A stretch of 64,000 nt of DNA from Fodinibius salipaludis (GTDB taxonomy: Bacteria > Bacteroidota > Rhodothermia > Balneolales > Balneolaceae), in contig NZ_NSKE01000003.1 in the NCBI RefSeq assembly GCF_002287075.1, forward strand, positions 124,001 to 188,000, in the 5' to 3' direction. The position numbers and the translations under genes were made by a program. Below are positions 2,980 through 63,772 of the stretch, one piece after another; position 1 is the stretch's first letter; the number at the start of each line of letters is the position of its first letter. The notes beneath the pieces were generated by a model. It was not told the origin of the DNA. It saw only the letters and a program-made list of their open reading frames with translations, and did not search any database.

Positions 2980-3519
2980 ATGACTACTACAGCGAAAACT
3001 TTATGGAAAATTGATCCGGCGCACTCGGAAGTACAGTTCAAGGTGAAGCACCTGGTAATTTCGACGGTAACCGGAAGTTTCAGTTCTTACGATGGACAAA
3101 TTGAAGCCGACGGTGATAATTTTGAAAATGCTAAAGCGACATTTACTGCCGATATTGACAGTATTTCAACGAATAATGAAGATCGCGATCAGCACTTGAA
3201 GTCCGAGGATTTCTTTAATACTGAAGAATATCCAAAACTTAAGTTTGAGTCTACAAACTTTGAAAAAGTCGGAGACGGGGAATACAAAGTTACCGGAGAT
3301 TTGACAATCCGTGACGTAACCAAGGAAATTAAATTAGATGTTGTGCATGGTGGAACGGTCGGTGATCAATATGGTCAGACCAAAGCAGGATTTGAAGTCG
3401 AGGGCACCATAAACCGGAAAGAGTTTGGCCTAACATGGAGTGCCGTAACAGAAGCTGGAAACGTGGTTGTGGGAGATGAAATTAAACTGCAGCTGAATGT
3501 TCAATTTATTCAGAGCTAA
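2980..3519 (+). CDS. YceI-family protein, cytosolic form
   Basis: A 179-residue YceI-family lipocalin-like barrel. It begins directly with the family opening (WKIDPAHSEVQFKVKHLVIS) and has no signal peptide, so it should stay in the cytoplasm, unlike the second YceI at 6408. Family hallmarks are DRDQHLKSEDFFNTEEYPKL (about 68-87), VTGDLTIRDVTKEI and the terminal strand VVVGDEIKLQLNVQF. YceI proteins bind polyisoprenoid or other amphiphilic molecules; the role here is unknown. It is alone between the promoter module at 2874 and a terminator at 3549. Confidence 0.9.
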   Translation: MTTTAKTLWKIDPAHSEVQFKVKHLVISTVTGSFSSYDGQIEADGDNFENAKATFTADIDSISTNNEDRDQHLKSEDFFNTEEYPKLKFESTNFEKVGDGEYKVTGDLTIRDVTKEIKLDVVHGGTVGDQYGQTKAGFEVEGTINRKEFGLTWSAVTEAGNVVVGDEIKLQLNVQFIQS

Positions 3520-3548: not shown

Positions 3549-3586
3549 AAGCGGGTATTCTCTTCTGGAGGATATCCGCTTTTTTA
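3549..3586 (+). terminator. Terminator after the first YceI gene
   Basis: AAGCGGGTAT (3549-3558) pairs with ATATCCGCTT (3572-3581), with one G-T pair, and runs into six T. It lies 30 bp after the YceI stop codon. Confidence 0.75.
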
Positions 3587-3672
3587 TTTCCTGATAATTC
3601 CCTGTACATTTTCAAATATTCTTGATGGTTCATTGTGCATAAACGACCTGACAATCCCAAAGTTGATAACGA

Positions 3673-4248
3673 ATGTATCAGCAACTAAAAGAAAGTCTTC
3701 AGGAGCATGTCTCACTAACTGATGAGCAGTGGGAACTCTGCAAGAATAATTTTCGTCCGAAGCGAATGCTTAAACGGCAATTCCTGCTTCAAGAGGGAGA
3801 CGTTTGCCGGCAATTGACCTTTGTGGAGAAAGGAGCCTTATATTCATACTCTGTGGATTCAAAGGGTAACCAGCATGTTTTGCGCTTTGCCTTTGACGGC
3901 TGGTGGATTGCAGATCTGCAAAGCTTTTTTACTGATAATCCATCTACGCTAAACATCGAGGTGCTGGAAGATAGCGAGCTGCTGGTTCTGGATAGAAAGA
4001 ATCATGAAAAACTACTCGAGGAAATTCCCGCCTACGAGCGCTACCATCGTATCATCGTCGAAAATGCGTATGTAGCTCTGCAGAAGCGCGTTGAAAATGC
4101 ATTGGGACTTACGGCCGAAGAAAAATATGCCCGCCTGATTAAAGACAATCCCGAATTTATGAATCGCGTGCCTCTGAACCTGGTGGCTTCCTACCTTGGG
4201 ATGAGTCCCGAAACACTGAGCCGCGTTCGCGGGAATTTCAGTGGTTAG
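3673..4248 (+). CDS. Crp/Fnr-family transcriptional regulator
   Basis: A 191-residue regulator with an N-terminal cyclic-nucleotide-binding-type barrel (about 20-125, with FLLQEGDVCRQLTFVEKGAL) and a C-terminal winged helix cut to its recognition part (LNLVASYLGMSPETLSRVRG). This is the compact layout of the Bacteroidota Crp family of about 190 residues. No cysteine cluster for an iron-sulfur centre is present, so it is not an oxygen-sensing Fnr in the strict sense. Palindromes of the Crp/Fnr type sit in the promoters at 2874 and 4631, so this gene may control the YceI gene and the oxidoreductase pair around it (inference from position). Confidence 0.88.
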   Translation: MYQQLKESLQEHVSLTDEQWELCKNNFRPKRMLKRQFLLQEGDVCRQLTFVEKGALYSYSVDSKGNQHVLRFAFDGWWIADLQSFFTDNPSTLNIEVLEDSELLVLDRKNHEKLLEEIPAYERYHRIIVENAYVALQKRVENALGLTAEEKYARLIKDNPEFMNRVPLNLVASYLGMSPETLSRVRGNFSG

Positions 4249-4259
4249 ACAAAAAACGA

Positions 4260-4541
4260 CTATTTTAATACATCTTGGAGCGACTCGTCTCTTTCTATAA
4301 TTGACTTGGCAAACGGGCAGAGTGGAATTACTCTCAATTCATTTTCGCGAGCATAGTTCACCGCATGTTTAACTAACGCCTTTCCAATACTTTTGCCCCG
4401 CAGCTCATCGGAAACCTCGGTGTGATCAATGATAATCTTTGATTGTCCGGCTTCCGAGTAGGTTATTTTGGCTTTTATTTTACCGTCCTCTTCGATAAAA
4501 AAGGATCCTTTGCTTTCTCCTGTCTTGTGTTGAATATCCAT
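4260..4541 (-). CDS. Small GNAT-fold N-acetyltransferase (YjdJ type)
   Basis: A 93-residue protein of the short GNAT family (PF14542 type). The acetyl-CoA loop is visible as VSDELRGKSIGKALVKHAVNYA (split here as VSDELRGKSIG and KALVKHAV, about 42-65), followed by the typical RVIPLCPFAKSII. Such proteins lack the N-terminal half of ordinary GNATs, and their substrates are unknown. It points toward the Crp/Fnr gene and shares the region 4542-4733 with the divergent operon at 4734, so the palindrome at 4631 could also act on it. Confidence 0.85.
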   Translation of the reverse strand: MDIQHKTGESKGSFFIEEDGKIKAKITYSEAGQSKIIIDHTEVSDELRGKSIGKALVKHAVNYARENELRVIPLCPFAKSIIERDESLQDVLK

Positions 4542-4630
4542 AATAGTAAACCTGTAGTGTTATTATCACGATCTTAATATGGTAGGCAAAACATGTGGCA
4601 ATTAACAGTCATAATCTAATGCCCATATTA

Positions 4631-4710
4631 TTGATATATATCAAGAGTGTTTCCTACCACATATCAATGACAAGGGAGCGCCAGAGCGCTATGTTTGCAG
4701 TAACAAAATG
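4631..4710 (+). promoter_or_regulatory. Fnr-type promoter module, copy 2 (upstream of oxidoreductase pair)
   Basis: TTGATATATATCAA at 4631-4644 is a perfect 14-bp palindrome of the Crp/Fnr TTGAT-n4-ATCAA kind. The 39 bp to 4669 match copy 1 (2874-2912) at 33 positions, and the shared CGCTATGTT follows at the same 18-bp distance. The start codon of the next gene is 90 bp after the palindrome, nearly the spacing of copy 1. Confidence 0.65.
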
Positions 4711-4733
4711 AAACTGTAAACAGAGCAATCACT

Positions 4734-5456
4734 ATGCCCATCACAAAACAAACAATCGCTATTATTGGAGCTGGTGGAAATATGGGCTCTGCCATTGCAA
4801 AAGGTATTGCGGGAGGAAACTATCGTCTTCTTCTTTTTGACAGAGATCCTGACCAATTGGAGTCATTAATAGAGAAGATTCAACAGGATCATCCAAACGC
4901 TGATGTAGTACCTATAGATTGTGCCCACGAGTGCAGTTGGGAGGCCGATATTATTATTCTGGCCGTTCCACACCAGGCCGAAAAAGAAATAGCTGACAAG
5001 ATACGGGATGTAGCTACCCAGAAGATTGTGATTAGTATAGCCAATCCCGTGGAAGAGGATTTTAGCAAATTGACAACAACCTCGGACACAAGTGCAGCAG
5101 AAGAGCTGCAAGAATGGTTGCCACACTCCAAAGTCATCAAAGCGTTCAACACCACGTTTGCAGCTGATTTTCAGCAGCCGATCATCGATGGTAAGCAGGC
5201 CGATGCCTTTATTGCGGGCAATGAGAAGGAAGCATTACAATCCGTCATTGAACTTGTAGAAACAGTGGGATTCAACCCGATTATTGCCGGAGATTTGTCA
5301 GTAAGCGGCACGCTGGAACGTATGCAGTTGTTACTTATACAGCTTATGATCAGAAACAATGACGACTGGCTGGCCCCGTGGAATGTCACAGAGTGGGCAC
5401 CCGAACTTTCGGGTGATTCCACAGGGCTGGCCGGATGGAAGATTCTACGAAACTAA
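4734..5456 (+). CDS. NADPH-dependent F420 reductase-like oxidoreductase
   Basis: A 240-residue cytosolic protein with an N-terminal Rossmann fold. The dinucleotide motif IGAGGNMGSAIAKGIAGG lies at about 10-27, and the later part (ADIIILAVPH, KVIKAFNT) matches the NADP oxidoreductase coenzyme-F420-dependent family (PF03807 type). Bacterial members often have no F420 and act on unknown substrates. It follows the Fnr-type module at 4631 and is 36 bp upstream of the NmrA-like gene, so the two probably form one transcript. Confidence 0.8.
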   Translation: MPITKQTIAIIGAGGNMGSAIAKGIAGGNYRLLLFDRDPDQLESLIEKIQQDHPNADVVPIDCAHECSWEADIIILAVPHQAEKEIADKIRDVATQKIVISIANPVEEDFSKLTTTSDTSAAEELQEWLPHSKVIKAFNTTFAADFQQPIIDGKQADAFIAGNEKEALQSVIELVETVGFNPIIAGDLSVSGTLERMQLLLIQLMIRNNDDWLAPWNVTEWAPELSGDSTGLAGWKILRN

Positions 5457-5492: not shown

Positions 5493-6350
5493 ATGATACT
5501 TGTCACTGGAGCAAACGGAAATTTAGGATCACAAACGATCGATTTTTTACTGGATAAAAATATTAATGAGGATATCGCCGGACTCGTCCGAAATGAAGAA
5601 AAGGGAGCGGAGTTAAAAGAAAAAGGCGTGGAAATAAGAATTGGCGATTATACGGATTATCCCTCTATCGAAGAGGCCGTTCAGGGAGTTAATACTCTGC
5701 TTTTGATTTCCTCGAGCACGCTGGAGGGACGAGCCCAACAGCACAATAACGTTATTGAAGCTGCGAAGAAAGGGGGTGTGCAGCAGATTTTTTATACCAG
5801 TATAGTGAAAGCGGAGGAAGAGTTGAGTCCGCTTTCACCGGATCATGCCAAAACCGAAAAGCTTATAAAGGAGTCCGGCATTCCCTATACAATTTATCGC
5901 AATGCATTCTATATGGAGTTTCTGCCTCTATTCTTGGGAGAAGCTATGGATACGGGCCAGTGGGCTTTCCCATCGGATGGGAACCCCATCAATTTGGCGC
6001 TTCGCTCAGAGATGGCCGAAGCCCTCGCTAACGGATTGGCTGATACCGAAAAACATGCAAACAGCATCTATGAAATTACATCAAATCAGGCTTACACTCT
6101 TGATGAAATTGCCAGTATGCTGAGTAAAGCGTCCGGCAAGGAAATCAACCATACCGATATCTCTGCTTCAGAATTTGAGCAAGGGTTGAACGAAGCAGGA
6201 TTGCCTGAAGAGCAGGTTGCCATGAGCGTAATGACGGCGCAAACATTTGTTAACGGTGGCCTTGATTTTACTTTTGATGACATGGAAAAGCTGCTCGGGC
6301 GCAAACCGACCGGACTCAAGACCTTTATAAAGCAATTTGTCGAACAATAG
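5493..6350 (+). CDS. NmrA-like / SDR-family NAD(P)-binding oxidoreductase
   Basis: A 285-residue atypical short-chain dehydrogenase of the NmrA/YtfG type. The N-terminal MILVTGANGNLGSQTIDFLL holds the GxxGxxG nucleotide motif, and the rest (TSIVKAEEELSPLSPDHAKTE, YRNAFYMEF) is typical of quinone-reductase-like members such as QorB/YtfG. These use NADPH to reduce quinones or act as redox sensors. It lies just downstream of the F420-reductase-like gene and just upstream of the exported YceI, fitting a small redox-response group. Confidence 0.85.
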   Translation: MILVTGANGNLGSQTIDFLLDKNINEDIAGLVRNEEKGAELKEKGVEIRIGDYTDYPSIEEAVQGVNTLLLISSSTLEGRAQQHNNVIEAAKKGGVQQIFYTSIVKAEEELSPLSPDHAKTEKLIKESGIPYTIYRNAFYMEFLPLFLGEAMDTGQWAFPSDGNPINLALRSEMAEALANGLADTEKHANSIYEITSNQAYTLDEIASMLSKASGKEINHTDISASEFEQGLNEAGLPEEQVAMSVMTAQTFVNGGLDFTFDDMEKLLGRKPTGLKTFIKQFVEQ

Positions 6351-6407: not shown

Positions 6408-6986
6408 ATGAAAAAGTTAACTTTCATTTTTTTCCTCTTAATTCTACCAATCAGCGTTTTTGCCCAGGATACTTGGGTAGAGGATCCTGCGCACTCAAAG
6501 CTCGGCTTTACGGTAACCCACTTGGGTATTGCTGATGTTCCCGGGTATTTTGGAGATTACGATGTTACCATTGAAGCCTCTGAAGAAGATTTCAGTGATG
6601 CCAAGGTAGAACTCACTGTGCAAACGGCTTCTATCGATACCCGCGTGAAAAAGCGCAATAATCACCTGAAAAGTCCTGACTTCTTTAACGTGGAAAAATA
6701 TCCGACGATGACATTTAAGAGTACGGGTATTAAGGAAATTGCTGATGACAAATACGAGCTAACCGGCGATCTGACTCTGCTTGGGATAACCAAGCCGGTA
6801 ACTGTAACCATGTTGTATCGCGGAAATATCCAAAATGATATGACGAATGGTGCTCTTAAATCAGGTATTCAAATCACCGGTACCATCGATCGGTCGGAGT
6901 TTGATCTCGGAGGAGATTTCCCGCCGCCCATGATCAGTAATCAGGTACGCATCAAAGCCGACGGTGAGTTTACGCTAAAAAAATAA
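6408..6986 (+). CDS. YceI-family protein, exported form
   Basis: A 192-residue YceI-family protein with a signal peptide (MKKLTFIFFLLILPISVFAQ, cleavage probably after residue 19), so it should work in the periplasm. The mature part starts with the family opening WVEDPAHSKLGFTVTHLGIA and has KRNNHLKSPDFFNVEKYPTM. It is clearly a paralogue of the cytosolic copy at 2980. YceI proteins carry isoprenoid-type ligands in a long barrel; the ligand here is unknown. A terminator follows at 7012. Confidence 0.92.
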   Translation: MKKLTFIFFLLILPISVFAQDTWVEDPAHSKLGFTVTHLGIADVPGYFGDYDVTIEASEEDFSDAKVELTVQTASIDTRVKKRNNHLKSPDFFNVEKYPTMTFKSTGIKEIADDKYELTGDLTLLGITKPVTVTMLYRGNIQNDMTNGALKSGIQITGTIDRSEFDLGGDFPPPMISNQVRIKADGEFTLKK

Positions 6987-7011
6987 GACCCCTTTTAAGG
7001 GCGATGTATAA

Positions 7012-7036
7012 GGCCCCGATTATTGTCGGGGTCTTG
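7012..7036 (+). terminator. Terminator after the exported YceI gene
   Basis: GGCCCCGA (7012-7019) and TCGGGGTC (7026-7033) form a stem with a six-base loop, followed by a short TTG tract. It separates the YceI gene from the VOC gene. Confidence 0.65.
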
Positions 7037-7059
7037 TAGATCTCCATCAAAGAAAACTG

Positions 7060-7557
7060 ATGATTATGAACAAGGATTACAAAACACCAGCCAATACACG
7101 TATTGGACATATTCATCTTCAGGTATCAAATTTGGACCGGGCCTTGGAGTTTTACCGCGATCTGCTTGGTTTTGAACTGACGACCATGTACGGCAAAAAT
7201 GCGGCTTTTCTGTCGGCCGGCGGATACCATCACCATATTGGTCTCAATACGTGGCATAGCAAAGGCGGACCGCCCGCGCCGCGCAATAGCGCCGGCTTGT
7301 ATCATACCGCTTTTTTGTATCCCACGCGGAAAGACTTGGCCGAAGTTCTTCAGCGCCTCATCGATGAAGGATATCCCATCAGCGGCGCCAGTGATCACGG
7401 CGTTTCTGAAGCCATCTACCTGGAAGACCCGGATGGCAATGGAGTAGAACTATATTGCGATCGTCCCCGTGAGGAATGGGAATACACCGAAGATGGCTCA
7501 GTCAAGATGGTCAGCAAGCCGCTTGAGGTGCAGGATCTGCTCAGTGAGTTTGATTAA
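7060..7557 (+). CDS. VOC-superfamily (glyoxalase/extradiol dioxygenase-like) protein
   Basis: A 165-residue protein of the vicinal oxygen chelate fold. Likely metal ligands are the His of IGHIHLQVSNLDRALEFY (near residue 19), the His of GLYHTAFLYPTRKDL and the Glu of GNGVELYCDRP, the pattern of catechol-2,3-dioxygenase (CatE)-like proteins. One half of the usual two-module extradiol dioxygenase is present. The start is ATG at 7060 or, two codons later, at 7066. The substrate is unknown; its place next to oxidoreductases suggests detoxification (weak inference). Confidence 0.85.
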   Translation: MIMNKDYKTPANTRIGHIHLQVSNLDRALEFYRDLLGFELTTMYGKNAAFLSAGGYHHHIGLNTWHSKGGPPAPRNSAGLYHTAFLYPTRKDLAEVLQRLIDEGYPISGASDHGVSEAIYLEDPDGNGVELYCDRPREEWEYTEDGSVKMVSKPLEVQDLLSEFD

Positions 7558-7560
7558 AAC

Positions 7561-7711
7561 CACTTTTTAATCATAAACCCCATCCTCCTAACCTCCCAGC
7601 CTTCGCCGAAGCTCTTGTATCTATGGTAGCCTTATTTTCTAAAGGCTCTGCGCAGGCAGGCTTCTCCAAGGAAGAATTCATTTAGGGGCTAAACTGATGA
7701 TAAGGCCGAAA
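7561..7711. other. Non-coding stretch with a small palindrome
   Basis: No reading frame is supported here. AGCCTTCGCCGAAGCT (about 7599-7614) is nearly self-complementary, and the bases after it (GCGCAGGCAGGC) look like intergenic repeat debris. No function can be assigned. Confidence 0.3.
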
Positions 7712-8011
7712 CTATTCCGAATTGTTTAATAACCGGTCAATGATAGTTGCCTTTCCCGGTTCCACATACATGCCGTAGGAAATGACCAAGAATCCCTTGT
7801 CCCCTGATTCAGTTGTGATGGCGTGTACGCTTGATTCACTCCCGGGGTCTGTTCCCTGATCAAAAGGGTGAGACTCGACGATGGTCAGTTCATCGGGGTT
7901 GAATTCTTTTTGTAATGACTTGCAAGTAATACAGTCATCTTCTAATTCAAAAATATTGGTATACCCTTGTTCCTTCAACGATTCAACGGCGTCGGCAAGA
8001 TCCTTGTACAT
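7712..8011 (-). CDS. Small conserved protein (family often labelled phosphoribosylpyrophosphate synthetase)
   Basis: A 99-residue soluble protein (MYKDLADAVESLKEQGYTNIFEL...). It matches a small Bacteroidota family by layout: helix, EDDCITCKSL with two cysteines, EFNPDELTIVESHPFDQGTDP, and a final VHAITTESGDKGFLVISYGMY. Databases often call this family phosphoribosylpyrophosphate synthetase, but at about 100 residues it cannot be that enzyme. A GTG three codons upstream (8020) is possible. The ATG at 8011 has GAGAGG eight bases before it and is preferred. The function is unknown. Confidence 0.65.
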   Translation of the reverse strand: MYKDLADAVESLKEQGYTNIFELEDDCITCKSLQKEFNPDELTIVESHPFDQGTDPGSESSVHAITTESGDKGFLVISYGMYVEPGKATIIDRLLNNSE

Positions 8012-8263
8012 AGTGACCACCTCTCAATATTTAATCACAATCTTATTTAAGGTGTAAGTATTTACATTTAAAACAAAATGTTAGAATTAGACGTATTTTT
8101 TTGAACGGGGTTAAAGATTACAGAGCTGCCTGTTGTACACTTTTGATATTACCCCCCCCCTTTCTTACCTATCATTTAGGATGTTTAAAAGCAACAAACA
8201 TACCGTCAAAATTACTACCGGACTGCTGATCTAACAGTCCCTTCTAAAACCGTAACCGGTTGG
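8012..8263. other. Intergenic stretch with a nine-C run
   Basis: No gene is supported. The segment holds a run of nine C at 8152-8160 and AT-rich DNA that leads into the NADH dehydrogenase remnant. It may be older decayed coding sequence. Confidence 0.4.
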
Positions 8264-8432
8264 TGAGCTTTGGCTATATGTGGCTTTTGTACACCTTTTC
8301 CAGCTGATCAACTATCGGAATCTTATTAAAACGATGTGGAACTGGACGACCGCTTATTTTACGGAGGATCAGTCACCGGGCATGATTGTACGTCCCACGG
8401 TAAGAGTTTATCCCAAAATAAAGCTACAGTAA
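8264..8432 (+). pseudogene. C-terminal remnant of type II NADH dehydrogenase
   Basis: From 8289 one frame reads VHLFQLINYRNLIKTMWNWT then AYFTEDQSPGMIV, ending at a TAA at 8430. This is the conserved membrane-binding tail of FAD-dependent NADH:quinone oxidoreductases (Ndh type), where FVHL-x-YRN and NW-x-YFT are standard. Just upstream, GCTTTGGCT and ATGTGGCTTTT fit the expected AWL-MWLF only if an extra T is removed and a missing T is added, so two small frameshifts are present. Nothing of the catalytic FAD and NAD domains remains. Confidence 0.6.
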
Positions 8433-59577: not shown

Positions 59578-60363
59578 TTAAAACTGTTTTTTTCGGAACA
59601 GGTAATAAGCCAGCAAGCCAAAAGGTACGCAGCTGACAAAGGCAAAGCCCAGCAGACTACCATCAATTCCCGATAAGCCATTGGCAAAAATTTGACTCAT
59701 AATTTGTTGAAAAGCTTCTGCGCTGGGTATAAGATAGGATAGTATTTGAAAGAGCGTTTCAAACCAGGTATCCGTTAAACCAAACATCTGTAGATACGAA
59801 TCAACATTTAAGAATAGAGAGGAAAATCCAGTTAAGAAATATCCCAGCAGAACCCCACCAACATAGGAGTTGGTAAGTATCAGGAATAGAACGATTGTTA
59901 TGTAGTAGCTTAATAATATGAGGGGCAGAAATACGATTATAGCAATGGCATGATGCAATGGAAATAGTACTCCGTGCAGTGAGGTTAGCAAGGTTAAAAG
60001 TAGCACACTTATGAGCGTGTATGAAAAACAAAAAGCGAATACACCGGCAAAATCTGAAAGGAATAGCTCATCTCTTGATATGGGTTTAGATAATAGTAGA
60101 GATGCTCGATCCGGGTTGATATTTTCTGAAAAATGAGTGGGAATACCAATGATTGAGATGAGGATCGTTATGGAAATCAATTGATTTATTACTATTCCGT
60201 TTGGCAGGGGGAATCCACCCAACTTTATTACATATGAGGAACTCGAGGGATCTGCTGAGACCCCGCCCCATAAAGCAATGGCTACAACAAACAGGATAAA
60301 GATTCCGGGCCATGCCCACAGCATTTTATTTTTGAGAAGTGTACGAATGGTGAATCGAATCAT
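59578..60363 (-). CDS. ABC transporter permease (ABC-2 type)
   Basis: A 261-residue inner-membrane protein with six helices. It starts MIRFTIRTLLKNKMLWAWPG, as in NosY/ABC-2 permeases, and has HFSENINPDRASLLLSKPIS with the coupling region RDELFLSDF. It overlaps the ATPase gene (60360) by four bases, so the two are one transporter. The substrate is unknown. Confidence 0.85.
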   Translation of the reverse strand: MIRFTIRTLLKNKMLWAWPGIFILFVVAIALWGGVSADPSSSSYVIKLGGFPLPNGIVINQLISITILISIIGIPTHFSENINPDRASLLLSKPISRDELFLSDFAGVFAFCFSYTLISVLLLTLLTSLHGVLFPLHHAIAIIVFLPLILLSYYITIVLFLILTNSYVGGVLLGYFLTGFSSLFLNVDSYLQMFGLTDTWFETLFQILSYLIPSAEAFQQIMSQIFANGLSGIDGSLLGFAFVSCVPFGLLAYYLFRKKQF

Positions 60364-61097
60364 GATCTAACGGGGTCTTTGGTTTCAAAATAATTAAGAT
60401 AGTAGTCCTCAACAGAGCCAAATTGGTTCTGAATTTCACCTTTGGTAGCCGAATTGATAATACGTCCATCTTTAATAAGATAGAGCGAATCGCAGGTCTT
60501 GTCGATGTCAGAGAGAATATGAGTAGTAATCAGGATAGAGATGTTCCGCTCTTTTTGCAGAGTAAAAATGTAATCCATGATAGCCTTTTTCTGCACGGCG
60601 TCGAGTCCGTTGAATGGCTCATCCAGGATGTAAAACTGATCATCCGCCAGAAAGGTGTGCATCAGCGCGGCGGTTTGGGTCATACCCTTGGACAGATTTT
60701 TTATCTTTTTGTCCAGAAATTCCACATTAAAAGCGTTTGCCAGTTTGCTTATTTTATGGTCTATCTGTCTTGGTGTTGATTCTTTGAGATCACTAAAGGC
60801 ATGCAGCATTTCATTGACCGTAAAGTTATCGGGAAATGAATAGTTCTCGGGGAGATAGCTCACTTTAGCCCGCGCTTGCTTTTGTTTATGATTGTGGCCC
60901 ATTAGCCAAATATTTCCGGCATCAGCAAAAAGAAGGTCGAGGATGATTTTCAAAAAGGTTGATTTGCCCGATCCATTGGGACCGAGGATGGCGGTAAAGC
61001 TACCTTCCGAGATTTCGATCTCATCAACCTGTAGTCGAAAGGTGTTGCCTCCCGATTTATTGAATGTTTTGTTCACATTTTGGGCTTTTAGTATCAT
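60360..61097 (-). CDS. ABC transporter ATP-binding protein
   Basis: A 245-residue ATPase. Walker A is AILGPNGSGKSTFLKIILDL, the signature is IKNLSKGMTQTAALMHTFLA (a LSKG variant of LSGG), and Walker B is FYILDEPFNGLDAVQKK. The D-loop and His switch follow (ISILITTHILSDI). It works with the permease overlapping its end. It begins 116 bp after the XRE gene and probably belongs to the same cluster. Confidence 0.9.
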   Translation of the reverse strand: MILKAQNVNKTFNKSGGNTFRLQVDEIEISEGSFTAILGPNGSGKSTFLKIILDLLFADAGNIWLMGHNHKQKQARAKVSYLPENYSFPDNFTVNEMLHAFSDLKESTPRQIDHKISKLANAFNVEFLDKKIKNLSKGMTQTAALMHTFLADDQFYILDEPFNGLDAVQKKAIMDYIFTLQKERNISILITTHILSDIDKTCDSLYLIKDGRIINSATKGEIQNQFGSVEDYYLNYFETKDPVRS

Positions 61098-61213
61098 AAT
61101 AGCTTCACTTACGATTAATAGTTAGTGGTTTCATACGAGGTATCATTACTGACGTTTCGGTACTGTGAAACGGCAGATGTGAAATGCGGTATTTTTCCAA
61201 TGCGTTTTTCGTC
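61098..61213 (-). promoter_or_regulatory. Gap between XRE and ABC genes with direct repeats
   Basis: TGTGAAA occurs at 61164-61170 and 61178-61184 (plus-strand reading), 14 bp apart, and GTTTC copies lie nearby. This could be the operator of the XRE regulator and a second promoter for the ABC genes. The assignment is tentative. Confidence 0.35.
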
Positions 61214-61435
61214 TCACGTTTCATTATTGCCGTTTGCCTCGTATTCCAAGATATCCCCCGGTTGGCAGTCTAATGCTTCACAGATGGCGTTGAGCGTGGA
61301 AAAACGTACGGCCTTGGCTTTGCCGGTTTTAAGGATGGAAAGGTTGGAGATTGTGATACCCACCTCCTCAGAAAGTTCGGTAAGCGTCATATCACGCTTC
61401 ACCAGTATTAGATCCAAATTTACTTTGATGGCCAT
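61214..61435 (-). CDS. XRE-family regulator (YozG type)
   Basis: A 73-residue, single-domain Cro/cI helix-turn-helix protein: NLDLILVKRDMTLTELSEEV, GITISNLSILKTGKAKAVRF, ALDCQPGDILEYE. This is the YozG type that usually sits beside DUF2975 membrane proteins, as it does here with three of them. It probably controls this cluster. It starts four bases after the membrane protein at 61440. Confidence 0.92.
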   Translation of the reverse strand: MAIKVNLDLILVKRDMTLTELSEEVGITISNLSILKTGKAKAVRFSTLNAICEALDCQPGDILEYEANGNNET

Positions 61436-61439
61436 TGTA

Positions 61440-62171
61440 CTAAATCGTGAGGTCTTGTTCTTTCTGAAGTGCTACGGCGCGCTGCAGTATGATACCTGTA
61501 AATAACAGTGCGACGCCGAGCAGTATGAGCTCGTTGTCGATAGGCGGTGACGGTTCTCCAAGGTAAAATTGATTGTTCAGGAAGCTAATCAGACGAAAGT
61601 CCAATCCCCATTTAAGAATTGCTCCACCGCTGAATAATAACGAAAGGCTTAAAATCACGTTTTTGATAGCGGGCACAAACAGTTTGTTATCTCTTCGATA
61701 GTTGATCTCGTAATACAGCATGTATAGAATCCCGATAATAAACAGTCCGCCGTAATAAAAGAAGATCTGCAGGCAAAACTGTGACCGCCAGAACGTAAGG
61801 TCATCCTCCAATACCAAAAATGAGGGCGACCCTTGAAGGCCGTAAATGGTGCGTTGCTGTTGTCTGTCCGTAAGGTTGAGCAGGGTATTATCCAGCTGCG
61901 GCAGAGGCGTTTGTTTATTTAGGTTTGTTACTGAAATATACGTTTTGCCGTATGTTGGGCGCTCGGGTCGCTCAACATCCTGGATAGTTGTTTTAGTAAT
62001 TCTAAGATTACCAATTTTTAACGAGCGTTCGCCTGTGTTCGAAGCTGTTATGGTTTGGGCATCCAGCATGTTGCTTACAGCTCGATAGTGATTGAATCCC
62101 AGGTAGCCCATCCAAAGCGTAAACACAGACAGCAGGCTAAGGACAACAATCCGGTAGTTTTTTGTGTACAT
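61440..62171 (-). CDS. DUF2975-like four-helix membrane protein, third copy
   Basis: A 243-residue membrane protein. One N-terminal helix (about 8-28) is followed by an extracytoplasmic loop of about 100 residues (with TYGKTYISVTNLNKQTPLPQ) and then three helices. The tail ALQKEQDLTI matches the C-termini of the two upstream proteins. The core is less typical of DUF2975 than theirs, so the family call rests on topology, tail and position. Its gene starts three bases after the next copy's stop. Confidence 0.65.
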   Translation of the reverse strand: MYTKNYRIVVLSLLSVFTLWMGYLGFNHYRAVSNMLDAQTITASNTGERSLKIGNLRITKTTIQDVERPERPTYGKTYISVTNLNKQTPLPQLDNTLLNLTDRQQQRTIYGLQGSPSFLVLEDDLTFWRSQFCLQIFFYYGGLFIIGILYMLYYEINYRRDNKLFVPAIKNVILSLSLLFSGGAILKWGLDFRLISFLNNQFYLGEPSPPIDNELILLGVALLFTGIILQRAVALQKEQDLTI

Positions 62172-62174
62172 CTG

Positions 62175-62822
62175 TTACACCGTGAGTTTTAATTCTTGAT
62201 ACATTTCGTTGCCTTTCTCGAACACAGCGGCCAGGGTAAATACAATCAATCCTATAATAATGAACATCCAATCTTCGCCCACCATGGGAATTTTAATGTT
62301 GATATTGGCCTGTTGCGATGCAAGCAAGTGTGCTTTGTCAGCCAGGGAATAGCGAATGAGATATCGGGTGAGCCACTGCAGGGGCTCAACAATAATCAGC
62401 AGGATAGCTATGGTTTTGATCCGTTGGATATTTGCAGCTGTAAATATGGATCCGTTAATAGTTCGCTTGAGAAGGCTACGAAGCTGATATAATCCGTAAA
62501 GAAAAAGGCCGAGCGCAATGCAGATAAAACCGCTCCAAATGATGTAAATAATGGGGTTACTTTGCATGATAAAATCAAAATCTATGGTTCCGGTAACCGA
62601 ATCAATGTCAAGAAACTCATAGTTGGCTTCCTCGTTCAGCGTTACCAGCGAGGGTTCCAGGGGCAGGGTGATCCCAAAAATAGAATCGGGATGGCTGCTA
62701 TAGAAGTACTCATAAATTAGTGTGGCGGGGAAGATAACTCCTATAACACACGATAAATACCACCACACGTTAACGATCAGGTAACAGATATAGGCGGTCG
62801 ATTTTTTGCTGAATCCACTCAT
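62175..62822 (-). CDS. DUF2975 membrane protein, second copy
   Basis: A 215-residue protein with four helices. A loop of about 50 residues follows helix 1 (SIFGITLPLEPSLVTLNEEA). The DUF2975 core is LYQLRSLLKRTINGSIFTAA then NIQRIKTIAILLIIVEPLQW, and the last helix leads to VFEKGNEMYQELKLTV. The family has no proven role; members pair with YozG regulators. Confidence 0.82.
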   Translation of the reverse strand: MSGFSKKSTAYICYLIVNVWWYLSCVIGVIFPATLIYEYFYSSHPDSIFGITLPLEPSLVTLNEEANYEFLDIDSVTGTIDFDFIMQSNPIIYIIWSGFICIALGLFLYGLYQLRSLLKRTINGSIFTAANIQRIKTIAILLIIVEPLQWLTRYLIRYSLADKAHLLASQQANINIKIPMVGEDWMFIIIGLIVFTLAAVFEKGNEMYQELKLTV

Positions 62823-62826
62823 AGTT

Positions 62827-63465
62827 CTATACCGTTAGTTTTTGTTCTTCGTATAGGCGGGTGCCCTCTTCAAGAATATAGGCGACTAAAAGTACCGCCA
62901 GTCCTGCAAGTCCCAGTTCCCACGCAACAGGTGGCCAAATAAGAGAGGTGTTTGCTGGCAGCTCAATATGGTGAATAGTGAGATACGAAAGCCATCCTAT
63001 CGCATACTTATATGGGACGGCTAGCACCATCAGGTGTCCAATAGTTTTAAGATTTTTGGAGTTTTGAGCAGACCATGGTTGTTGACGTCGAAGATTTCGC
63101 AGTATGTGTTTGAGGAGGGTAAGCCCGTACATTGCAAGACCATAGAGCCCCAAAGTCATTATGGAAGCCAAATAGTAGCTCCATGTTTGCTTGAGATCGG
63201 CCTTAATGGGGTCGATACTCGTTTCGAAAATAGATTTTTGGAAAATACCATCCACTCTACTGTTGGCAATAAGATCGGAAAATTGATGAACGCGGATACG
63301 GACGGTCAATTCCTGTATACCCAGTGGGCTACCCACAAAAATTTCTAACAGAAAAAAGATGGCCCCGAATAGAATTGAAATGAAGTATACTGCCCAGGCA
63401 AGCTGAGCAAAAAAGAGTAGAATGCCAGCAATGTTCCAGTCGTTCTTAAACCATTTCCAAGCCAT
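62827..63465 (-). CDS. DUF2975 membrane protein, first copy
   Basis: A 212-residue protein with four helices. Its core LTLLKHILRNLRRQQPWSAQ then NSKNLKTIGHLMVLAVPYKY is DUF2975, and the end LEEGTRLYEEQKLTV matches the other copies. It is the first gene of the cluster, 4 bp ahead of the second copy. The promoter should lie in the AT-rich 63466-63560. Confidence 0.82.
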   Translation of the reverse strand: MAWKWFKNDWNIAGILLFFAQLAWAVYFISILFGAIFFLLEIFVGSPLGIQELTVRIRVHQFSDLIANSRVDGIFQKSIFETSIDPIKADLKQTWSYYLASIMTLGLYGLAMYGLTLLKHILRNLRRQQPWSAQNSKNLKTIGHLMVLAVPYKYAIGWLSYLTIHHIELPANTSLIWPPVAWELGLAGLAVLLVAYILEEGTRLYEEQKLTV

Positions 63466-63772
63466 ATCTCTAAATCATTTCTTGATGTTCATCCGTAACT
63501 AAAAAGAAATATTATTGAATTACAATAAATTTTTATTGATAAACAACAAATTATTGGTGTTTTATGGTAAAATCAACGAAAATATAGTTGGCCAGGGATT
63601 TCTCATTGAAATTTCAGAAGTCAAAAGTGAGAAGCAAAAAGTGGCAACTAATGAGTAAAAGGTGGGAAATTTGTCACTAGTAACTCATAAAGCAATACGC
63701 ATTACTATGGGCCCGTCTTACTTTTTACTTTTCCTCCTTCCCGTCTGCCTTCTCATATTTGCCGTTTTGTAA
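63466..63772. other. Intergenic region
   Basis: No gene is seen. The left part is very AT-rich and suits a promoter for the DUF2975 cluster. The right part (63600-63770) has simple AG/CT-rich stretches without a clear hairpin. Confidence 0.45.

Follow-up and report, generated by a model that had tools for sequence, protein, structure and literature searches.

The window analyzed here, 64,000 nucleotides (nt) of Fodinibius salipaludis DNA (contig NZ_NSKE01000003.1, positions 124,001 to 188,000), carries on its minus strand at 59578-63465 six open reading frames (ORFs) transcribed in the order D1, D2, D3, X, A, P. D1-D3 are DUF2975-type membrane proteins, X is a YozG-type regulator, and A and P are an ATP-binding cassette (ABC) ATPase and a putative permease. 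Judged from gene neighborhoods in related genomes, the core unit of this locus is [DUF2975]n–YozG and not the full set of six genes. Gene order, an operator-like palindrome before the operon, a C-terminal tail common to the D proteins, and the co-occurrence of these last two with X suggest a self-regulated membrane-sensor/regulator module. It would work in the manner of SdpI–SdpR or LytTR systems but share no homology with them, a reading to which we give a probability of about 0.5.

A conserved unit of DUF2975 genes and one regulator

D1 and D2 exceed the Pfam gathering score of DUF2975 (PF11188; 27 bits) with 44.4 and 44.1 bits, respectively, while D3 stays under it with a match confined to its last 28 residues (14.1 bits). 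A profile built here from other DUF2975 proteins, with the D3 class left out, matches D3 at E = 2.4e-8 and finds 8 of the 10 D3-class members (E 2.8e-9 to 0.0034) and misses two; its seed was originally gathered with a profile that included the D3 class. Additionally, a D3 relative in genome G007 lies above the Pfam cut-off (30.1 bits), and it is on this relative and the profile match that the "DUF2975-type" label for D3 holds. Of 394 genomes sampled from the phylum, 105 have a DUF2975 match, and no function for the family was found in the literature searched.

X belongs to HTH_26 (80.6 bits against a cut-off of 22), and no LytTR family is among its eight Pfam matches at E ≤ 1. Its profile finds 109 sequences in the fetched loci; in the alignment of these, which includes X itself, residues N31, S33, K36, L48, C52, L55, C57, and P59 do not vary. 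Two of these invariant residues, C52 and C57, are cysteines. The conservation of X is far above that of the D proteins. Among solved structures, 3tyr is the sole match to X at E ≤ 0.01 (3.9e-7); the D profile has no meaningful match there (best E 0.72).

The survey covers 120 chosen loci from genomes of the family of the window (Balneolaceae) and of its phylum. Multi-copy loci were picked deliberately, after which most other listed matches were added and weak ones mainly omitted, such that array frequencies are those of this sample, drawn among the matches listed. Clusters were defined as same-strand matches to the D or X profile with neighbors less than 600 nt apart. The 116 clusters comprise 75 DX, 19 DDX, 6 DDDX, 4 DDDDX, 2 DDDDDX, 6 D alone, 3 X alone, and 1 DD alone. 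Thus, 106 clusters hold one to five D genes together with X, which follows the last D gene in every case, at a gap of at most 20 nt in 103 of them (median 3, largest 223). The DD cluster (G398) has its D genes parted from X by two protease genes. One surveyed locus, L101 (G028), shows a broken regulator and no D genes.

In the window, the gaps are 4, 3, and 4 bp among the membrane genes and the regulator, followed by 116 bp from X to A and a 4-bp overlap of A with P. The last D gene lies directly 5' of the regulator gene on the same strand, the arrangement of the YoaS/YozG type; YoaS is presumably a DUF2975 protein. Since the arrangement is repeated in related genomes, it is, on this comparative evidence, not due to chance. 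Neighbors of the unit in the family include radC and a PNP_UDP_1 gene that we take to be AMP-nucleosidase-like (amn-like): both lie in the fetched stretch of 22 of the 37 family clusters, the amn-like gene only in 3 and radC only in 4. Beyond the phylum, a DUF2975 gene is annotated directly before a helix-turn-helix (HTH) gene in four of five fetched Bacillota plasmid stretches; in the fifth, neither is annotated.

Family clusters (n = 37) comprise 15 single, 13 double, 6 triple, 1 quadruple, and 2 quintuple arrays, while the clusters outside the family (n = 69) comprise 60 single, 6 double, and 3 quadruple arrays. In an unevenly supported tree of 71 family D proteins (stars on 35 of its 68 inner branches), the label "last in array" requires 7 changes, compared to 17.9 for shuffles, none of which (of 500) came as low, while the label "single" does not cluster (12 changes against 13.4; 99 of 500). 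The ten D3-class proteins fall in nine arrays, and the D protein adjoining X belongs to the D3 class in all nine; an uncultured Aliifodinibius metagenome-assembled genome carrying D3 has a fourth D gene in its array. To judge from these sequence relationships, the array paralogues are old classes whose order is partly kept.

These results bear on several statements of the initial annotation. Its six genes, their strand, gaps, and ABC overlap agree with the ORF coordinates, and its three non-identical DUF2975-type proteins stand, D1 and D2 through Pfam and D3 through the profile match and the G007 relative. Its view that distinct DUF2975 proteins belong together with a single YozG-type regulator is strengthened by the 106 of 116 clusters and by the operator-like palindrome before the first membrane gene. 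One-to-one pairing, which it gave as common, accounts for 75 of the 106 clusters, more than any other arrangement; the other 31 hold two to five D copies, in a sample that favored multi-copy loci.

An operator-like palindrome and a shared C-terminal tail

Upstream regions of at least 150 nt were available for 104 loci and were scored against dinucleotide-preserving shuffles. TTATTG-N5-CAATAA is matched at 11 or more of 12 positions in 86 of them (~0.3 expected), that is, in 32 of 36 family regions (0.05 expected) and 54 of 68 others (0.25 expected). Spacings of 3, 4, 6, or 7 in place of 5 give at most one match each, and the shorter ATTG-N5-CAAT at spacing 5 occurs 69 times upstream of the 106 arrays, compared to 0.85 in mononucleotide shuffles. 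Many family loci carry a second, usually weaker match 21 bp from the first. A stricter form, TTATTGTTTWTCAATAA, searched as an exact match in 92 family genomes, has 21 occurrences spread over 20 of them; 18 lie just ahead of a D gene, and the reversed control has none. The three remaining matches (G044:C152, G065, and G069) sit in 3-kb stretches that contain neither a D nor an X gene, and the genome of the window itself has no match to this stricter form. The palindrome accompanies X: 93 of 114 loci that have X also have it, compared to 1 of 10 that lack X.

The window contains two copies at 63512-63549. They fall within 63466-63560, one of two regions that the initial annotation had named for footprinting of X; the other, 61098-61213 between X and A, holds no palindrome match with two or fewer mismatches. 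The copy nearer to D1 is the sole exact match in the 3.58-Mb assembly. A wider regulon was considered and rejected: sites with at most one mismatch number 31 in this genome against 23 for the reversed control, and no targets are therefore claimed beyond the pair before D1. At three loci where other genes precede the D genes (G294, G301, and G398), a site lies before those genes, at a quality (10-11/12) expected by chance roughly once per 100 kb (31 in 3.58 Mb). One of these, at L077 (G398), is an 11/12 site at 3464-3480 before an S49 peptidase gene (3576-5351) that precedes the D genes, a single locus that could be chance.

Outside the family, the palindrome appears to overlap promoters. TAnnTTTG, which we take to be the Bacteroidota -7 element, is found 29 times at the 54 sites there, against 2.7 expected from mononucleotide shuffles, and 26 of these matches begin 17-20 nt after the TTG of the site. 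In all four Bacillota plasmid loci examined, a hexamer resembling -35 lies in the left half-site and is followed at 17 nt by a sequence matching TATAAT at 4-5 of 6 positions, a count that carries no shuffle control. Given these -7/-10-like elements at a set distance after the half-site in other lineages, X is predicted to cover the promoter, which suggests that it represses, at least outside the family of the window.

The D proteins share an extreme C-terminal tail of approximately E-[QN]-x-L-T-[VI]-COOH. Of the 165 D proteins whose stop codon is present, 156 have E at position -6, 153 have L at -3, 142 have T at -2, and 158 have V or I at -1. Since the motif sits at the very end of the protein and the synonymous positions of its codons differ between genes, the constraint is on the protein. 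By a stricter table of 178 D proteins, the canonical tail is present in 158 of 168 with X downstream, in 1 of 10 without X, and in 1 of 1238 other ORFs (Fisher p 2e-9 for the association with X, with shared descent ignored). G145 (L083) is the sole X-less locus that keeps both features, a canonical tail and an 11/12 palindrome; its X ends after a few codons and is followed by a frame judged by eye to be transposase-like. Among the other nine X-less D proteins, that of L136 is only 97 residues long, that of L020 adjoins a regulator-like fragment, and that of L050 keeps a degenerate tail. The D proteins of L153, L161, L163, L025, and L031, likewise without a downstream YozG-type gene, lack the tail motif and may be free-standing or decaying. 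Three more weak D loci without X and without the tail lie outside the table (G252, G125:C6, and G421, the last not found by the D profile); L182 was part of the input.

Mean pairwise identity between D proteins is lowest in the outer loops (0.10-0.11), higher in the inner loop (0.21), and highest at the C-terminus (0.47), a distribution that points inward. One site of the inner loop is F in 92% of D proteins, and the first outer loop is longer in array members (median 50 residues) than in single D proteins (median 23). Lysine and arginine outnumber aspartate and glutamate at the N-terminus and in the inner loop, and the reverse is true of the outer loops. This charge pattern and the AlphaFold2 model of D1, which has four long helices at a mean predicted local distance difference test score (pLDDT) of 67.8, are consistent with a topology in which both termini are cytoplasmic; the acidic tail adds nothing to that assignment. 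The model of D3 is too weak to use (mean pLDDT 47.3).

A possible working of the module

In the proposed mechanism, X would bind the palindrome before the operon and hold expression low, a sign of control suggested by the promoter overlap seen outside the family. Each D protein would be a four-helix membrane protein with cytoplasmic N- and C-termini, variable outer loops, and a near-invariant tail. An event outside the cell or in the membrane may be sensed by the outer loops, upon which the tail and the conserved inner loop would capture X and free the promoter. The result would be more D protein together with any cargo on the same transcript, in the window perhaps the ABC pair, and the outcome may be immunity or defense against stress. 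Arrays of two to five divergent paralogues could deliver several inputs through one regulator. The reading of the locus as a module draws on decay in G009 as well, where the regulator gene carries a stop, no D gene was found, no site above 10/12 remains, and A-P is intact.

Several points count against this reading. Binding by X, the sign of control, and contact between tail and X are inferred from sequence patterns. Eighteen of the 104 upstream regions lack an 11/12 match, and nine of these reach 10/12, where the chance level is ~7/104. TAnnTTTG follows none of the 33 sites in the family of the window (2.2 expected), and the argument for repression thus rests on other lineages. The ten X-less D proteins do not count as independent lineages, and truncation or decay has affected some of them. 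Most training sequences of the D profile carried the tail, such that tail-less proteins may have escaped it, and the background tails were taken from a mechanical ORF list. The N-terminus (identity 0.27) and last helix (0.24) are, like the tail, more conserved than the outer loops, and Foldseek finds no match to the D1 model better than E = 1.2.

The closest analogies in working, with no common family membership claimed, are SdpI–SdpR and the LytTR systems. SdpI–SdpR is likewise a membrane protein and an autorepressor in one operon. The protein families differ, SdpR being of ArsR type, and the window has several membrane paralogues. According to a review, SdpI sequesters SdpR at the membrane in an immunity operon of Bacillus subtilis (PMC1626106). 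The LytTR systems HdrRM and BrsRM pair a regulator with a membrane inhibitor, are autoregulated from sites just upstream of -35, and have ABC genes linked to some of them (PMC6193735). Modeled on these, X would be an activator held inactive by the membrane proteins, whose release by a signal switches on their own operon. Such positive feedback is rather unlikely, though it may apply in the family of the window: in other lineages, the -35/-33-like TTG falls inside the conserved half-site and not downstream of it. In addition, the membrane gene comes first. LytTR systems further differ in having a LytTR regulator, direct repeats upstream of -35, and the regulator gene in first place, while the window has an HTH_26 protein, a palindrome, and membrane genes first. 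BcrR of enterococci, a membrane-tied HTH regulator beside the ABC exporter BcrAB, resembles the window in joining an HTH regulator, a membrane part, and an ABC neighbor; it does so in one protein, while the parts in the window are separate and multiple.

Neighboring genes and remaining alternatives

A relative of P is present in 10 of 92 family genomes, that of the window included, and the fetched loci yield ten copies of A at E < 1e-50, counting that of the window. P itself remains under the Pfam cut-offs for ABC2_membrane families (best 20.3 bits against 27, ABC2_membrane_4) and is called ABC-2-like on the basis of this match and the overlap of its gene with the ABC ATPase gene. A-P lies downstream of the amn-like gene in all ten genomes that have it, and seven of these (G000, G010, G013, G017, G018, G019, and G091) carry an intact D-X between the two. 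In G009, X contains a stop, no D gene was found, and the stretch holds no palindrome above 10/12, while A-P and its neighbors are intact; the decayed module (L086) lies around 6811-6978. D-X of G071 sits on another contig than A-P, and the 3-kb contig of G074 shows only amn, A, and P. Conversely, A-P is absent from the fetched stretch of 30 of the 37 family D-X loci, some stretches ending at contig edges. A-P is on both counts a facultative neighbor, possibly co-transcribed with D-X where present, and was rejected as a core part.

The initial annotation had cast D1-D3 as one hetero-oligomeric sensor with the ABC pair as its dedicated output. Paralogue classes with partly kept order, a D3-class protein always adjoining X, A-P beside intact D-X in seven genomes, and the finding of no terminator-like site between X and A on the gene strand all agree with it. 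It is nevertheless improbable, as 15 of the 37 modules in the family contain one D gene only, most family modules show no ABC pair in the fetched stretch, and A-P occurs in G009, G071, and G074 without an intact adjacent D-X. The neighborhood survey thus bears out the company of D genes and X, whereas the ABC pair stands beside the module in only seven family genomes and is not supported as a fixed output.

Genes for Rce1-like (CPBP) membrane proteases are found within or next to DUF2975-regulator operons at four of 120 loci (Table 1). A CPBP motif scan gave 13 matches, of which the four Pfam-confirmed loci were taken as real; the L064 match was judged false by eye, and the others are either more than 2 kb distant or at a locus that has neither D nor X. 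Two of the four protease-bearing genomes share a genus, and not all four are in one family. L076 and L082 each have a small hydrophobic ORF (45 and 29 codons, respectively) between the operator-like site and the protease gene. The ABC pair and the Rce1-like proteases, as cargo near some modules, might fit a membrane-stress or immunity role.

Table 1. Features of the locus and protease genes near related modules
Feature	Position	Strand	Basis
D1, DUF2975 membrane protein, 212 residues, tail EEQKLTV	62827..63465	-	Pfam 44.4 bits
D2, DUF2975 membrane protein, 215 residues, tail QELKLTV	62175..62822	-	Pfam 44.1 bits
D3, divergent DUF2975 protein, 243 residues, tail KEQDLTI	61440..62171	-	Pfam 14.1 bits; profile built here, E = 2.4e-8; tree
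X, YozG-type HTH_26 regulator, 73 residues	61214..61435	-	Pfam 80.6 bits
A, ABC transporter ATPase, 245 residues, facultative neighbor	60360..61097	-	Pfam ABC_tran 89.5 bits
P, ABC-2-like permease, 261 residues, facultative neighbor	59578..60363	-	Scores under Pfam cut-off
Operator-like copy 1 (distal), TTGTTG-TTTAT-CAATAA on gene strand	63533..63549	-	1 mismatch to TTATTG-N5-CAATAA
Operator-like copy 2, TTATTG-TAATT-CAATAA	63512..63528	-	Exact match; 21 bp center to center from copy 1
Rce1-like (CPBP) protease genes, L077 (G398)	6737-8370		Pfam
Rce1-like (CPBP) protease gene, L076 (G301)	4582-5391		Pfam
Rce1-like (CPBP) protease gene, L082 (G294)	3952-4755		Pfam
Rce1-like (CPBP) protease gene, L072 (G298)	5621-6244		Pfam

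The D-X pair itself is already known as an uncharacterized association. Makarova et al. 2009 include the combination of Xre and YoaS-like membrane proteins, with 32 cases, in their list of conserved pairs (PMC2701414). YoaS/YozG comprises the same two families as D and X; the window differs from it in three divergent D genes, longer outer loops, and the ABC pair, and the passages of PMC2701414 consulted describe neither the palindrome nor the tail. In a non-ribosomal peptide cluster of Streptomyces cacaoi, cppC (DUF2975) stands next to cppD (HTH) in the gene table of PMC7827011. The Xre–YoaS listing invites comparison with toxin-antitoxin pairs, in which free D proteins would harm the membrane and X would mainly be their repressor. 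This is quite improbable, given that the same authors (PMC2701414) set such pairs aside as not toxin-antitoxin and that X-less D genes persist at ten loci, though several look decayed. Most doubtful is a tail that serves as a handle for a protease or chaperone instead of a dock for X, with D proteolysis setting the switch: the motif does end at a free C-terminus and Rce1-like genes do accompany some operons, but only at the four loci, two of them in one genus, and a general protease leaves the absence of the tail from nearly all X-less D proteins unexplained.

The tail, the palindrome, and old paralogue classes with partly kept order are features not found in the literature searched; the arrays, too, were without a description there, in a body of accessible texts that excludes most subscription journals and preprints. 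As an extension of the sensor/regulator module, we tentatively suggest a scheme of many receptors and one regulator, although it is more speculative than the module itself. Ordered paralogue classes with differing outer loops would present the same tail, E-x-x-L-T-[VI]-COOH, to a near-invariant X, so that any of several insults, perhaps membrane-active peptides, might induce the whole set along with facultative cargo. With the palindrome, the tail, and their association with X, a family of unknown function becomes a circuit open to precise and inexpensive tests. Should docking by the tail prove true, the module would represent a compact signaling design in which receptors can multiply while the regulator stays as it is.

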